IMG/VR virus record: IMGVR_UViG_3300025087_002182
Span: 1 to 22,201 of that record
Reading direction: 5' to 3' (one strand)
Length of the DNA: 22,201 nt
Origin: a virus
In this document: piece after piece, positions 4,868-17,972 of the stretch
Layout of the letters: every line of letters starts with the position of its first letter
Numbering within the stretch: the stretch's first letter is position 1
Translations under genes and position numbers: made by a program
The notes under the pieces: model-generated
Told to the model about the DNA's origin: nothing
Database searches by the model: none
Seen by the model: the letters and a program-made list of their open reading frames with translations, nothing else

Positions 4868-5290
4868 CTAATGATTACCAGAAATCTTCCTATCTTTGAC
4901 TGCCGTCTCTAGCATCCCGATTACCGCCATCGAGTTTCGTACTCGCTCCCCCAACATCCCCGGCCACCACTCGTTGACTTGTGGTGATTGAAGGTTGGTT
5001 GGAATAGTCGAGCCGTTGAACGCTTCGGCAATGTGTCTCGTTAGCTCGTCTGCTCTATCTGGTTCGTGTAGTCTAGCAGCTAGAGCATATGCTATATTTA
5101 TTGCTGTCTCTTGCACCTCGGCGCTCATATATTTCTGTATTCCATACCCGCCGAGGATATTCATGTCGGTCATCATCTGCGACATCTGCGGATGGATGAG
5201 GCAGATGTCAAAGTGTTCAGCTAGGGGCTTCCACAGGGATTGAGTCGTGTGATTCCCCGACATTAATAGAACTGGCCTCTGTTCTTCCAT
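4868..5290 (-). CDS. N-terminal part of the amber-split glycosyltransferase-like protein, 140 aa
   Basis: The frame starts MEEQRPVLLMSGNHTTQSLW, a beta strand and Gly-rich turn typical of a GT-B N-terminal Rossmann domain, and continues through LAEHFDICLIHPQMSQ. It stops at TAG 4870-4868 after KISGNH. The frame of the 262-residue protein is the same (4870 and 4831 differ by 39 bases), and the codons between are coding-like. Without the TAG the gene would encode 415 residues. GGGAG lies 13 bases before the ATG, longer than usual. The start codon lies next to the promoter and leader of the plus-strand HNH gene. This is either a nonsense mutant, a split gene, a readthrough gene or a sequencing error. 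Confidence 0.7.
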   Translation of the reverse strand: MEEQRPVLLMSGNHTTQSLWKPLAEHFDICLIHPQMSQMMTDMNILGGYGIQKYMSAEVQETAINIAYALAARLHEPDRADELTRHIAEAFNGSTIPTNLQSPQVNEWWPGMLGERVRNSMAVIGMLETAVKDRKISGNH

Positions 5291-5293
5291 CTA

Positions 5294-5302
5294 TGATATA
5301 AT
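5294..5302 (+). promoter_or_regulatory. Extended -10 promoter of the first HNH gene
   Basis: The plus strand reads TGA-TATAAT, a perfect extended -10, about 104 bases before the HNH start codon. No good -35 lies 16-18 bases upstream. It is opposite in direction to, and only four bases from, the ATG of the glycosyltransferase gene at 5290. Confidence 0.65.
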
Positions 5303-5308
5303 ACTCCC

Positions 5309-5399
5309 GTCTAGGCAAATCTGAATCTGTGATAAGATTGGGATTCATTCCCCATCGGCGGGTTTGCCTAGACAACAAACTCACAGACTGATGGGGAAT
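5309..5399 (+). other. Structured leader: predicted H-type pseudoknot covering the HNH ribosome-binding site
   Basis: Two long exact inverted-repeat pairs interleave. Stem A pairs 5309-5319 with 5363-5373 (11 bp). Stem C pairs 5347-5356 with 5390-5399 (10 bp). The order A-C-A'-C' is that of an H-type pseudoknot. A shorter pair, TCTGTGA at 5326-5332 with TCACAGA at 5381-5387, would join the two loops. The 3' strand of stem C contains GGGGA at 5393-5397, the probable ribosome-binding site of the HNH gene. The leader could therefore repress translation until the fold is opened. The repeats are seen directly; the fold and control are inferred. Confidence 0.6.
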
Positions 5400-5405
5400 T
5401 TCTTT

Positions 5406-5855
5406 ATGAAAACCAAAGTATGTTCACATTGTAAAGTAGAAAAAGAACTTAGTCAATTCTATAATTCAAAGGTTGGAAGGCTTGGCGTGACGCACCAATG
5501 TAAGTTTTGTATGCGAGAATACCGGCGAACGGAAAAGTTTCTTTCCAAAAGACGAATGCGCTCTAGAGAGTTTAGAAAGAATCATAAGAAAGAACATCTA
5601 GCTATACGAGCCAGAAACTATACTAAAGACTATGCTAAAATATCAGCAAGAAATTACTTGAATAGACAAGTAATTCGCGGAAAATTTCTCTCTGCCAAGA
5701 CACAGATATGCCTTCTAAAAGACGATGAGTGTCGAGGCAAAATGGAATATCATCACTATCTTGGCTATGATAAAAAACATAGAATGGATGTTATTCCTTT
5801 ATGTGTTTATCATCATCGCTTTGTTGATTTCCGCTCAAAATGGGATTCTCTCTAA
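5406..5855 (+). CDS. HNH homing endonuclease, plus strand, 149 aa
   Basis: The N-terminus holds a zinc-ribbon-like pair CSHC at residues 5-8 and CKFC about 28 residues later, a common DNA-binding start in phage HNH proteins. The middle is very basic (many Arg, Lys). The C-terminus has the HNH core: EYHHYLGYD, MDVIPLCVYHHRFVD, with the His pair as catalytic and metal-binding candidates. I chose ATG 5406 because GGGGA lies eight bases before it; the in-frame TTG at 5364 lies within the leader stem and the ATG at 5391 would put the ribosome site out of reach. The gene runs against all its neighbours and has its own promoter, typical of a free-standing mobile endonuclease inserted between structural genes. 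Confidence 0.85.
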   Translation: MKTKVCSHCKVEKELSQFYNSKVGRLGVTHQCKFCMREYRRTEKFLSKRRMRSREFRKNHKKEHLAIRARNYTKDYAKISARNYLNRQVIRGKFLSAKTQICLLKDDECRGKMEYHHYLGYDKKHRMDVIPLCVYHHRFVDFRSKWDSL

Positions 5856-14069: not shown

Positions 14070-14407
14070 TAGAATTCTATCTCTTCATATTTGGCACGCG
14101 GATCGTCTCGGCAACTATACTGTTCTTCTGGCGGATCATCGTGTGGGCAGATATGATAACTTACCTTTCCCGATACAGATAGAGACAATGTAGCAATCTT
14201 ATCTTTGATAAGTTGCAATACTTCTTTTGAACCAATTAAGCTATTCAAACGGATATGGAGAATAGAATTACCTTCGTCCTCCGTCCAATCGAAGGGTTTG
14301 TCAAATACACTGCGTCGTCTGAATAGATCGTCAAAGAACAGCTTGGTGACGATCTTCCCATCTAGCTGTTTGTCTCTAAGATAGATTTGGATACGCGGCT
14401 TTGCCAT
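14069..14407 (-). CDS. Conserved-looking phage protein of unknown function, 112 aa
   Basis: The start is ATG 14407, which overlaps the TAA stop of the fibre gene as TAATG; a longer version from 14428 would run into that gene. The protein starts MAKPRIQIYLRDKQLDGKIV, a beta strand and basic region, has an acidic middle (DWTEDEGNSILHIRLNSLIG), a helix (KEVLQLIKDKIATL), and a C-terminal HICPHDDPPEEQYSC with possible metal-binding His/Cys. It is coupled on both sides by TAATG overlaps to the repeat fibre and the LamG-like protein, suggesting a shared role, perhaps as a fibre accessory protein. No family recognised. Confidence 0.65.
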   Translation of the reverse strand: MAKPRIQIYLRDKQLDGKIVTKLFFDDLFRRRSVFDKPFDWTEDEGNSILHIRLNSLIGSKEVLQLIKDKIATLSLSVSGKVSYHICPHDDPPEEQYSCRDDPRAKYEEIEF

Positions 14408-17403
14408 TATGCTACTATCTCGAAGCACGTTACGCGCACAACGACCGCTCCTGTTGTTGGAACTTCGCAGGTAAAGCGTATCGCCTCATTGTTTAGCCCA
14501 GCGCCGAGGATGCCATTCCCGTCGCCTATGGTGATACCACCGCCCGGAACTAGACCGGGATGAGACAAGACTAATCCCGATGCGCCTCCTGTTCCAGATG
14601 CAGAAAGAGTATTTGTCCCAAAGCCAAGTCTTACTCCCACGCCCACCGTAACTGCTTCGTCCAGTGTTACCTCGGCCTTTGTGATAACAAGTTTATTGGT
14701 CGTACTTGCGGCCCACAATGCTTGATCGTTCTGCGCGGTGGTAAAGGCAAACTCTTTACTACTCGCCGCCATGTGCCCACCGAGAACGAATGGAATGCCG
14801 TCAACATTGCCATACCAGTTAGAACGGTCTGCATGAGCGACTGCGGTTGGCTTTACCCCAAACGAGGCAGAACGAATACCTACCTTGACTGGATTACCCG
14901 CATCTGCCGCGTCGTGGGCCAAGTCACCAGAAACGAGAGCCGAGGGAGCATTACTGATACTGGCGGAGACTCCGAGGTTAATCTTATCTACCGTGATCGA
15001 CCCGCTACTAACAGACGCCGAAACTCCCAGATTGATCTTATCTACAGTGATGGAGCCACTAGAGATAGACGCAGAAACAGGAGTGTTGACTTTTTCTACG
15101 CTGCCGAGAGAACCGCTTACCGCAACCGTGTTAGAGATAGAGGCCGACACAGGAGTATTGATTTTCTCAATGCTCCCCAACGACCCGCTACTGATTGAGG
15201 CCGAGACGGGAGTGTTTATCTTCTCCACACTCCCTAACGACCCGCTGCCGATAGACGCTGAAACTACATTATAGATACTGGATAAACTCCACCCATCCGT
15301 CACTTGTTGGATGACAGAGGCTATACCTATGTTGTTTGCTCCAGCAAGTAGCGCAACCGAGCCTCCCGATACCGAGGCCGATACCTGTAAATTTACCTTA
15401 TCAACTGTAATTGATCCACTACTAACGGAGGCCGAAACTTGAGTATCAACTTTGTCAACCGTGATAGACCCAGAAATGATTAACGGAGAACCGATAGCGC
15501 CAAGCTGTAAACCACTTGCATCACGAAGATTAACATGTAGCGCACGCGAGGCAGTCATTCGTAACACGCCAAGTTGGCACGCCGTCAGAGATGCCGCAGT
15601 CTCAAAGTACATCCCCCCAACTGGCACAAGGGGAGATGCACCCTCTGAGTAGGATGTGTAATCAGAGTAGGCAATATTGCTTATGCTGGCTGAGACTTGG
15701 AGATCAATTTTATCTACAGTGATAGAACCACTACTTATTGAGGCTGAAACAGTATCGTCAATCTTGCTAACGGTAAGTGAACCACTACTAATGGAAGCCG
15801 AAACAGGGGTATTAATCTTCTCTATACTTCCCAATGAGCCACTAACTCCGACAACATTCGAGATCGAGGCCGAGATAGGTGTATTGATCTTCTCTACCGC
15901 TCCTAGAGAACCACTAGAGATCGAGGCGGAAACAGGGGTGTTTATCTTCTCCACAGAGCCAAGTGATCCGCTTCCAATAGATGCAGATACCACATTGTAG
16001 ATACTAGACAGACTCCAACCGCTAGTAACCTGTTGTATAACTGAAGCTATGCCAATAGCATTTACTCCAGCGAGCAATGCAACGCTTCCGCCGGCAACGG
16101 AAGTAGAAACTACAAGATTGACCTTATCTACTGTAATCGACCCCGCACTTACAGAGGCAGAAATCTGGTTAGAGATATTGTTGATAGTCCCCGCCGCGAT
16201 GCTGGCTGAGATTTGCAAGTTGACTTTATCAATGGTGATAGAGCCACTGCTAATTGAAGCAGAAACAGGAGTGTTGATCTTCTCTACTGTACCCAGAGAA
16301 CCACTAGAGATTGAGGCTGAGACAGGAGTATTGATTTTCTCAATGCCTCCCAATGACCCGCTACTAATAGACGCTGATACTACGTTATAGATACTAGATA
16401 GACTCCAACCGCTCGTTACCTGTTGAATGACAGAAGCAACTCCAATAGTATTTGTGCCAGCAAGCAGAGCAATGCTACCTCCTATAACGGAGGTAGAAAC
16501 CACAAGATTGACTTTGTCAACCGTAATAGAACCACTGCCTATTGAGGCTGAAACTTGATTAGAGATGGTGTTAATTGTTCCAGAGGAGATGGAGGCTGAA
16601 ACTTGAAGGTTTACTTTGTCAACCGTGATTGACCCACCAGATACACTAGCAGAAATCTGGTTGGAAATAGTGTTGACTGTACCCGAGGTAATCGTGGCGA
16701 CAATCGGTGAGCCAGTGACGCCAAGTTGTAATCCGCTGGCGTCGCGCAGGTTTACGTGCAGAGCACGACTGGCGGTGATACGGAACATTCCCACTTGGCT
16801 TGCCGTAAGTGAAGCAGTAGTCTCAAGGTATACACCACCCGCCGGAGTGAGACTCGTTACTCCTTCCGCAAATGCACCAGCGTCAGCAATATTGGTTCCG
16901 CCCGCTCCGCCGGTGACATACATCGGGGAAGCCGCTGAGATACCATATTGATTGCCCGCTGTGTCTACGATATTCACGCTGGCAGCCGCGACGGCGACCA
17001 GAAGTTGACTAGAGGAGTTTATCCCTACAATGTCAACTCCATCAGTAATCTTTATCGGCCATGCGTTCCCGATCCCGGTCGGGGTAGACTGAATTACACT
17101 GGCCGAACCAAAGACATTCGCTCCGGCCAGAAGTGCTACACTGCCACCGGAGACCGAAGCTGAGATTTGTAAATTGATCTTATCTACTGTGACCGACCCG
17201 CTGGCAATAGACGCCGAGAGGAGATTTGAGACTATCGTGACGATAGGCGATGCGCCAAAGCCCGAGGCGGAGAAGAAGTTCTCATCCACGTCTGCAAGGA
17301 TGATCTCCTGTGCGTGTTCTCCGCCGCCGAACTGTTTTGTGGCAACGACAGTGTTTGCCGGAGGAGTAGAGTCTGCGGAAGCTGTAAAGGTTATATTGTC
17401 CAT
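14407..17403 (-). CDS. Long repeat-built fibre-like structural protein, 998 aa
   Basis: Residues 1-60 form a non-repetitive start with KQFGGGEHAQEIILAD, an N-terminal element frequent in phage structural proteins. Residues of about 62-820 consist of short beta repeats with consensus SASISSGSITVDKINL or SASISSGSLGSVEKINTP (about 18 residues), suggesting a long solenoid or triple beta fibre. Larger units are repeated too: GGSVALLAG with SVIQQVT and GWSLSSIYNVV occurs three times, plus one degenerate copy, and SRALHVNLRDASGLQLG with its flanks occurs twice. Residues of about 822-998 form a globular end with DLAHDAADAGNPVKVG and SNWYGNVDGIPFVLGG, a pattern often seen at fibre ends. Encoded between portal and LamG gene. 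The fibre role is inferred. Confidence 0.75.
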   Translation of the reverse strand: MDNITFTASADSTPPANTVVATKQFGGGEHAQEIILADVDENFFSASGFGASPIVTIVSNLLSASIASGSVTVDKINLQISASVSGGSVALLAGANVFGSASVIQSTPTGIGNAWPIKITDGVDIVGINSSSQLLVAVAAASVNIVDTAGNQYGISAASPMYVTGGAGGTNIADAGAFAEGVTSLTPAGGVYLETTASLTASQVGMFRITASRALHVNLRDASGLQLGVTGSPIVATITSGTVNTISNQISASVSGGSITVDKVNLQVSASISSGTINTISNQVSASIGSGSITVDKVNLVVSTSVIGGSIALLAGTNTIGVASVIQQVTSGWSLSSIYNVVSASISSGSLGGIEKINTPVSASISSGSLGTVEKINTPVSASISSGSITIDKVNLQISASIAAGTINNISNQISASVSAGSITVDKVNLVVSTSVAGGSVALLAGVNAIGIASVIQQVTSGWSLSSIYNVVSASIGSGSLGSVEKINTPVSASISSGSLGAVEKINTPISASISNVVGVSGSLGSIEKINTPVSASISSGSLTVSKIDDTVSASISSGSITVDKIDLQVSASISNIAYSDYTSYSEGASPLVPVGGMYFETAASLTACQLGVLRMTASRALHVNLRDASGLQLGAIGSPLIISGSITVDKVDTQVSASVSSGSITVDKVNLQVSASVSGGSVALLAGANNIGIASVIQQVTDGWSLSSIYNVVSASIGSGSLGSVEKINTPVSASISSGSLGSIEKINTPVSASISNTVAVSGSLGSVEKVNTPVSASISSGSITVDKINLGVSASVSSGSITVDKINLGVSASISNAPSALVSGDLAHDAADAGNPVKVGIRSASFGVKPTAVAHADRSNWYGNVDGIPFVLGGHMAASSKEFAFTTAQNDQALWAASTTNKLVITKAEVTLDEAVTVGVGVRLGFGTNTLSASGTGGASGLVLSHPGLVPGGGITIGDGNGILGAGLNNEAIRFTCEVPTTGAVVVRVTCFEIVA
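14945..17225 (-). repeat. Coding tandem and higher-order repeats inside the fibre gene
   Basis: The region holds dozens of imperfect repeats of about 54 bases, each coding SAS(I/V)xxGS plus an eight- to ten-residue linker. On top of these, a block of about 80 residues recurs with centres near 16425, 16030 and 15305, and a module of about 55 residues recurs at about 16870-16695 and 15640-15480. Copies differ mostly at synonymous positions, which argues for selection on protein and for old rather than very recent duplication. Confidence 0.8.
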
Positions 17404-17432
17404 TTGATATCCATGTCAGATAATGTTATAAT
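17404..17432 (+). promoter_or_regulatory. Sigma70-type promoter of the second HNH gene
   Basis: TTGATA at 17404-17409, a 17-base spacer, then TATAAT at 17427-17432, preceded by TGT, so it has both a near-consensus -35 and an extended -10. It begins right next to the ATG of the minus-strand fibre gene at 17403. The transcript would begin around 17439. A short hairpin (CCAAT 17436-17440 with ATTGG 17447-17451) overlaps the ribosome site GGAGG at 17450-17454. Confidence 0.8.
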
Positions 17433-17459
17433 GCCCCAATCTCATAATTGGAGGTTGAT

Positions 17460-17972
17460 ATGGCAGCTTTTCAAGATTTGATCGGAAAGAAGTTTGGAAG
17501 ACTTACCGTACTTTGTCGTAATAACAAGCGCGGAACAAGACCCATTTGGAAATGCAAATGTGAATGCGGAAAAGAGAGTCTTGCACGTCCCTATGACTTG
17601 ATTCATGGAAAACATAGAAGTTGTGGTTGTCTACACATAGAATCTATTACCCATCATGGACATACCAAGAATGGTGGATACAGAACTCCAGAATATGGGA
17701 CTTGGATAAATATTAAGTCTAGATGCTATAACTCTAAGTCGGCATCGTATTTCTGGTATGGCGGAAAGGGAATTACTGTTTGTGAAAGATGGAAAAATTC
17801 CTTTGAAATGTTCTTTGCCGATATGGGAAAACGACCATCTAGGAAACATTCGATAGAACGCATCGACAATTCTAAAGGATACTCTCCAGATAACTGTGAA
17901 TGGGCTACACGAGAAAAGCAACATTTCAATCAAGCCCATTATAACCAATTTACCAATCCCAGAAAGAGATAG
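17460..17972 (+). CDS. HNH/AP2-type homing endonuclease, plus strand, 170 aa
   Basis: The protein starts MAAFQDLIGKKFGRLTVL, followed by WKCKCECGKES and HRSCGCLH, a zinc-ribbon-like CxCxCG and CGC pair. Next comes YGTWINIKSRCYN, YFWYGGKGITVCERW, then FFADMGKRPSRKHSIERIDN and GYSPDNCEWAT, the recognised pattern of phage HNH-type endonucleases with an AP2-like DNA-binding part. It starts at ATG 17460, five bases after GGAGG (17450-17454); an in-frame TTG at 17448 is inside the ribosome site. The gene runs opposite to all structural genes between portal and fibre, ends six bases from the portal stop, and has its own promoter, so it is a free-standing mobile gene. Confidence 0.9.
   Translation: MAAFQDLIGKKFGRLTVLCRNNKRGTRPIWKCKCECGKESLARPYDLIHGKHRSCGCLHIESITHHGHTKNGGYRTPEYGTWINIKSRCYNSKSASYFWYGGKGITVCERWKNSFEMFFADMGKRPSRKHSIERIDNSKGYSPDNCEWATREKQHFNQAHYNQFTNPRKR

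Follow-up and report, generated by a model that had tools for sequence, protein, structure and literature searches.

What is the function of the roughly 100 nt that separate a plus-strand endonuclease gene from a minus-strand neighbour in a phage genome, and do they form an RNA that restrains the gene into which they lead? The window analysed here is an entire IMG/VR virus record (IMGVR_UViG_3300025087_002182, 22,201 bases), in which the majority of genes, including those for a Mu-type portal, a terminase and a major head protein, lie on the minus strand. The endonuclease gene (5406–5855, plus strand, start ATG at 5406) encodes an HNH / endonuclease VII-like protein of 149 amino acids that matches the PHROG endonuclease VII and endonuclease families (E values of 9e-10 and 1.2e-9); Pfam gave no match. 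Relatives of this protein have an identity to it of only 25–32% and the same opening, MKTKVCSHCK, and a genome scan with the protein found none.

Three interleaved helices ahead of the endonuclease gene

Upstream of the start codon are two exact inverted pairs, of 11 bp (5309–5319 with 5363–5373) and 10 bp (5347–5356 with 5390–5399), and a third of 7 bp (5326–5332 with 5381–5387); as the preliminary description had claimed, all three are in place; they are mutually interleaved. That description took the fold for an H-type pseudoknot, which has to be revised: with the third interleaved helix included, it is a three-way junction of the order ABCABC. Counting G-U pairs, the plus-strand RNA has a stem A of 15 bp (5309–5323 with 5359–5373; core GUCUAGG/CCUAGAC), a stem B of 7 bp at the coordinates of the third pair, and a stem C of 12 bp (5347–5358 with 5388–5399). 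In the resulting order A-B-C-A′-B′-C′ the junction linkers are 2, 0 and 0 nt long. Judged by these positions, the three helices are predicted to meet at one nearly gapless three-way junction, because C is followed by A′, and B′ by C′, without a gap, and just 2 nt (two A) lie between A and B. The third pair, previously considered a possible chance match, belongs to this design, being flush with C′ and recurring as 8 bp, in other letters, in a homologous leader (L168, below). Bridging the outer helix ends are 7 nt from A′ to B′ (the linker AACAAAC, 5374–5380) and 14 nt from B to C.

In a coarse three-dimensional test using A-form phosphate traces, 4,293 of 400,000 random placements of B met the linker and clash limits, and in this model the three-helix arrangement can be built sterically. 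The separate duplex energies in the window are −23.0 for A, −8.2 for B and −18.8 for C; on account of these the full pseudoknot is the predicted end state, expected to be more stable than both nested folds even with a large penalty applied. The leader structure is well supported, and we infer that the pseudoknot forms in solution.

Long exact pairs had been called improbable by chance, a claim supported by counts in the window, in phage DNA and in shuffles. Elsewhere in the window, exact pairs of at least 8+8 bp are interleaved just once, in an 8/8 case. Under a flush ABCABC descriptor the leader has 31 Watson–Crick pairs; the same descriptor applied to 1.47 Mb of other phage DNA on both strands (~2.9 Mb) returned 116 sites with at most 22 such pairs, and the best of 200,000 first-order Markov versions of the leader had 24.

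Just upstream of the structure is an extended −10 promoter, TGATATAAT (5294–5302, plus strand), with its predicted +1 at G5309, where stem A starts. The exact motif TGnTATAAT occurs four times in the window, and two of these occurrences lie just upstream of two plus-strand nuclease genes (starting at 5406 and at ATG 17460); from the sequence we infer that the promoter at 5294–5302 is used. At the other end of the leader, the 3′ strand of stem C (5388–5399) contains the likely Shine–Dalgarno, a modest GGGGA at 5393–5397, in agreement with the earlier placement of the ribosome site within the 3′ strand of the second stem.

The second of the two nuclease genes (17424–17972, plus strand; PHROG 374, E value of 4e-60) encodes an HNH protein and is antisense, between the portal gene and the gene for a 998-amino-acid protein. 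A separate TGTTATAAT and a strong GGAGG ribosome site precede it, but its leader is short and has no comparable structure. The 998-amino-acid protein (14407–17403, minus strand) is made of many SASISSGSITVDKINL-like repeats, and its gene adjoins structural genes.

The structure might instead act on the minus strand, as the 5′ untranslated region of the gene that starts at 5290: the start of that gene adjoins it, and shuffled sequences fold less well than either strand. However, the G-U pairs that close the junction, at the flush A/C contact, exist on the plus strand only, the plus strand likewise carries the promoter, the Shine–Dalgarno and the start-codon register, and the constant neighbour in homologous leaders is the downstream plus-sense nuclease gene, all of which makes a minus-strand role very improbable. 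Between 5290 and 5309 the plus-strand nuclease promoter overlaps the ribosome site of this minus-strand gene, so that mutual interference is possible. The minus-strand gene itself (5290–4043) is glycosyltransferase-like and is interrupted by one in-frame TAG (4868–4870), which falls within an arm of an exact 16-bp inverted repeat (4777–4792/4861–4876) and has the appearance of a template-switch mutation or else of an artefact of assembly.

Homologous leaders in other phages

Pattern scans that fixed B, C or the loops gave chance matches only, because these parts vary; the matches examined (two members of a 44-nt group and one 26-nt member) were unrelated. The productive viral pattern scan, TATAATN{3,9}GTCTAGGCAAA, matched 14 contigs, two of them also with the matching TTTGCCTAGAC. 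Homologous leaders are present, as a single copy in each record, in IMGVR_UViG_3300022680_000054 (L166) and IMGVR_UViG_3300029183_000003 (L168). Pattern matches in a Mycobacterium phage and an uncultured phage lacked the second half of stem A, a Vibrio match lay inside a helicase gene, and the leaders of the protein relatives of 25–32% identity (L001–L003 and L005–L009) are not homologous to that of the window. Leader scans of phage, E. coli and plasmid collections gave no match, and a search with model R1 of 1.68 Mb of loci and 50 more virus records yielded no additional copy.

The search pattern fixed the first 11 nt of stem A and left the A′ strand free; several shared features lie outside it. 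In all three leaders the spacing from TATAAT to the G of stem A is exactly 6 nt, where the search had allowed 3–9 nt. After A′ all three read A(A/C)CAAA, the linker of L168 being ACCAAAU (alignment A2). The C′ strands of the homologues carry purine-rich, Shine–Dalgarno-like runs (AAGGGGG in L166, AGAGAGG in L168), and in every leader C′ is followed by a U-rich spacer and then the start codon, which is 97, 101 and 104 nt from the +1 in the three copies.

Pairing at A and C, the loss of which in homologues the preliminary description had named as grounds for abandoning its proposal, is retained in both, for C through compensatory changes. L168 has the geometry of the window leader: A of 16–19 bp, a 2-nt gap, B of 8 bp (GUCAAUGG/CCAUUGAC, in the same alignment columns as the window B), zero gaps at the other two contacts and a 7-nt linker, with a stem C of 16 bp. 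In L166, A has 13 bp and C has 16 positions with one A-A mismatch; stem B is essentially absent, and L166 alone would fit a two-stem form.

Covariation was assessed on an alignment that MAFFT made of the three leaders from sequence only, without fitting the structure; in it the window and L168 pairs of A, B and the inner ten of C fall on the same columns. For A, B and C together, 90.6% of pair cells are paired, as against 31–47% when partners are slid by 1–3 columns; 11 pairs are changed on both sides, with 14 doubly changed cells, and none of 500 shuffles scored as high. For stem C alone, 7 of 10 pairs are changed on both sides (8 of 11 on a second alignment, A3). The covariation concerns C in all three leaders and B in two (window and L168). 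Stem A varies at its inner end only and has almost no covariation of its own, because its 5′ strand was part of the search pattern; for this stem the presence of A′, and not covariation, is the proper measure. The changes in B and C appear far from what shared ancestry without pairing would produce, although only three sequences are compared. They also bear on a reading at the level of DNA, as a recombination or cleavage site or the end of a mobile element, or as chance repeats. Stem A is indeed a constant inverted repeat of 11–12 bp beside mobile-type genes, but B and C change letters and still pair, including by G-U, and the junction geometry is kept; chance repeats are excluded by the descriptor and shuffle counts and by the geometry of L168. 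We consider a DNA-level or chance origin extremely unlikely.

The three leaders precede genes of three different families. The preliminary description had placed its leader ahead of an HNH gene, which holds for the window gene and does not extend to the other copies. The L166 gene encodes a T5orf172/MUG113 protein with a GIY-YIG-type domain (E value of 5e-17); given its hydrophobic N-terminus, it may not be a mobile endonuclease. Downstream in L168 is a DUF559 gene (E value of 2e-12) with a weak Vsr match and an uncertain start codon (TTG 6476). Protein similarity between the window phage and the L166 and L168 phages was not detectable; the latter two have a terminase in common, at 41% identity. 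In the window and L168 the nuclease gene is antisense to its neighbours, and orientation against neighbouring genes is common for inserted free-standing endonucleases.

Lying at about 6342–6353 in L168 is GAACGTGCGTTC, a palindrome resembling a Gram-positive-type SOS box (GAACN4GTTC), which falls within the 17 nt that separate ATGACA from TATAAT in the leader promoter; three further such sites are present in the 59-kb record. Going by this motif, DNA damage might control the L168 nuclease.

The leader could also be the binding site of an autoregulating protein, either the nuclease or another phage protein. The stem A core together with the ACAACAAA linker is the most constant part of the leader, and there is a precedent in T4 and T2, where the gene 32 leader forms a two-stem H-type pseudoknot upstream of the ribosome site and is bound by gp32, which thereby represses its own translation (PMC3014915). 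The downstream proteins belong to three different families, however, which makes a single self-binding mode unlikely, and the 5′ strand of A owes some of its constancy to the search; we regard autoregulation as improbable.

Predicted competing folds and closure of the ribosome site

Part of stem A has an alternative partner. The segment GGGUUUG (5360–5366) can pair with CAAACUC (5376–5382) in a hairpin D with the loop CCUAGACAA, which sits on top of C, excludes distal A and overlaps B. Its CAAA partner is present twice, in the 5′ strand of A and in the linker, and across the three leaders 95% of D cells are paired. As regards a riboswitch, in which a ligand-binding aptamer would be coupled to an expression platform, competing folds are predicted in all three. 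For nested folds with the ribosome site free or sealed, the energies are −32.3 and −34.5 kcal/mol in the window, −34.8 and −36.9 kcal/mol in L168, and −32.2 and −34.6 kcal/mol in L166. Without pseudoknots the gap between free and sealed is thus 2.2, 2.1 and 2.4 kcal/mol, respectively, and so small a difference in every leader suggests, in these models, a tuned switch. Folding of the growing transcript has A forming before C′ is made, and both stable end states seal the ribosome site.

Taken together, we estimate a probability of about two in three that the segment is a conserved leader RNA of ~100 nt that forms a three-helix pseudoknot, is made from its own promoter, restrains synthesis of phage nucleases and can be shifted by a trigger. 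The RNA would start at the leader promoter and end at the start codon of the nuclease-type gene. Its 5′ end would pair with a distant segment to form A, after which the loop and the tail would pair as B and C to give the compact pseudoknot. As C′ holds the Shine–Dalgarno, the ribosome site would be closed both in the pseudoknot and in the alternative C+D hairpin, and it would be open only in the interval between the formation of A and that of C, the two helices being transcribed in this order. Such a leader would keep nuclease synthesis low or transient, and a protein, ion, metabolite or host state could act as the trigger that shifts it. Repression of translation by the leader, and switching, would presumably follow from these folds.

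The main rival is a transcription attenuator, in which the C+D hairpin and the U-rich run form an intrinsic terminator before the start codon and A serves as the antiterminator. C+D does fold as one long hairpin (z of −4.3 in the window, −4.6 in L168 and −2.9 in L166), the run that follows it is UUUUU in both homologues and, in the window, UUCUUU, and D and distal A compete for a shared GUUUG strand. Yet the U-run of the window is interrupted, the Shine–Dalgarno lies inside the stem, as in translational control, the start codon comes immediately after the U-run, which is unusual for attenuators, and a simple terminator scan did not list the C+D hairpin. An attenuator is accordingly rather unlikely, and restraint of translation is the reading that we prefer.

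Within the A–C loop, both homologues contain an exact TATAAT (in L168 as part of an extended −10, TGGTATAAT), the spacing of which puts a +1 at the first base of stem C in L168 or 1 nt before it in L166; the window has only TAAGAT, within a weak −10-like element (TGATAAGAT, 5330–5338, plus strand). Such elements make possible a second, internal promoter that would yield a short RNA beginning at stem C. Transcripts from it would retain the whole of stem C, with the ribosome site sealed. A broader proposal is that these leaders represent an undescribed class of RNA switch, passed among phages as a cassette that is not bound to the nuclease it controls (HNH, GIY-YIG-like or Vsr-like), bistable between A and C+D, with an ABCABC end state and possibly with an internal promoter that makes a small RNA from stem C; we offer this only tentatively, as a possibility that is more doubtful than the restraint of nuclease synthesis itself.

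Relation to known phage RNA structures

The preliminary description knew of no RNA class that the leader matches, and our searches support this. Against Rfam 15 (4227 families), nothing in the window reaches the gathering score, and for the three leaders and their neighbourhoods relaxed thresholds gave chance matches only, none of them meaningful. A literature search that covered only a minority of subscription journals found no description of such a phage-nuclease leader. Two kinds of known element were considered and rejected: HEARO / IscB omega RNA, as there is no HEARO match and the 149-amino-acid open reading frame matches only endonuclease VII-type families, and a group I intron with its encoded endonuclease, as no intron model matches and the flanking genes are antisense.

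In T4-like phages, RNA structure seals the ribosome sites of endonuclease genes (PMC2988022). The structures described for I-TevI, I-TevII, I-TevIII, segB and Aeh1 mobE are simple hairpins on long early or middle transcripts, escaped through a late promoter placed inside them (PMC2988022). Common to these leaders and to those described here is closure of the Shine–Dalgarno of a phage endonuclease gene, here by prediction and covariation, with C holding the G-run in all three copies. In contrast to the T4-type hairpins, the present leader has its own predicted promoter and would form an interleaved three-helix pseudoknot, and it occurs ahead of three gene families. The window and L168 do not fit the T4-type formation of the structure on long read-through transcripts from upstream genes: the neighbouring genes are antisense there, and the structure begins at the predicted +1. 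The gene 32 leader, by analogy, is likewise a pseudoknot in a phage mRNA leader, but in the present leader the ribosome site lies within the third helix. The ABCABC order of its helices appears in a survey of known RNA structures as the ‘pseudotrefoil’, primitive class 1C (PMC3390330), which is a topology and not an RNA family. The leader would thus be a further form of a known kind of element, RNA structures that close off the ribosome sites of phage endonuclease genes, its closest known counterparts being the T4-like hairpins and the gene 32 pseudoknot.

The interleaved three-helix fold with a flush junction is a rare topology, of which these leaders offer natural, compact examples for structural work. 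If the proposed restraint is correct, they would provide a small, testable model for how phages hold back DNA-cutting genes. It would also mean that unrelated selfish nuclease genes in unrelated phages have one RNA control cassette in common, and hence that the cassette itself has been exchanged or repeatedly recruited.
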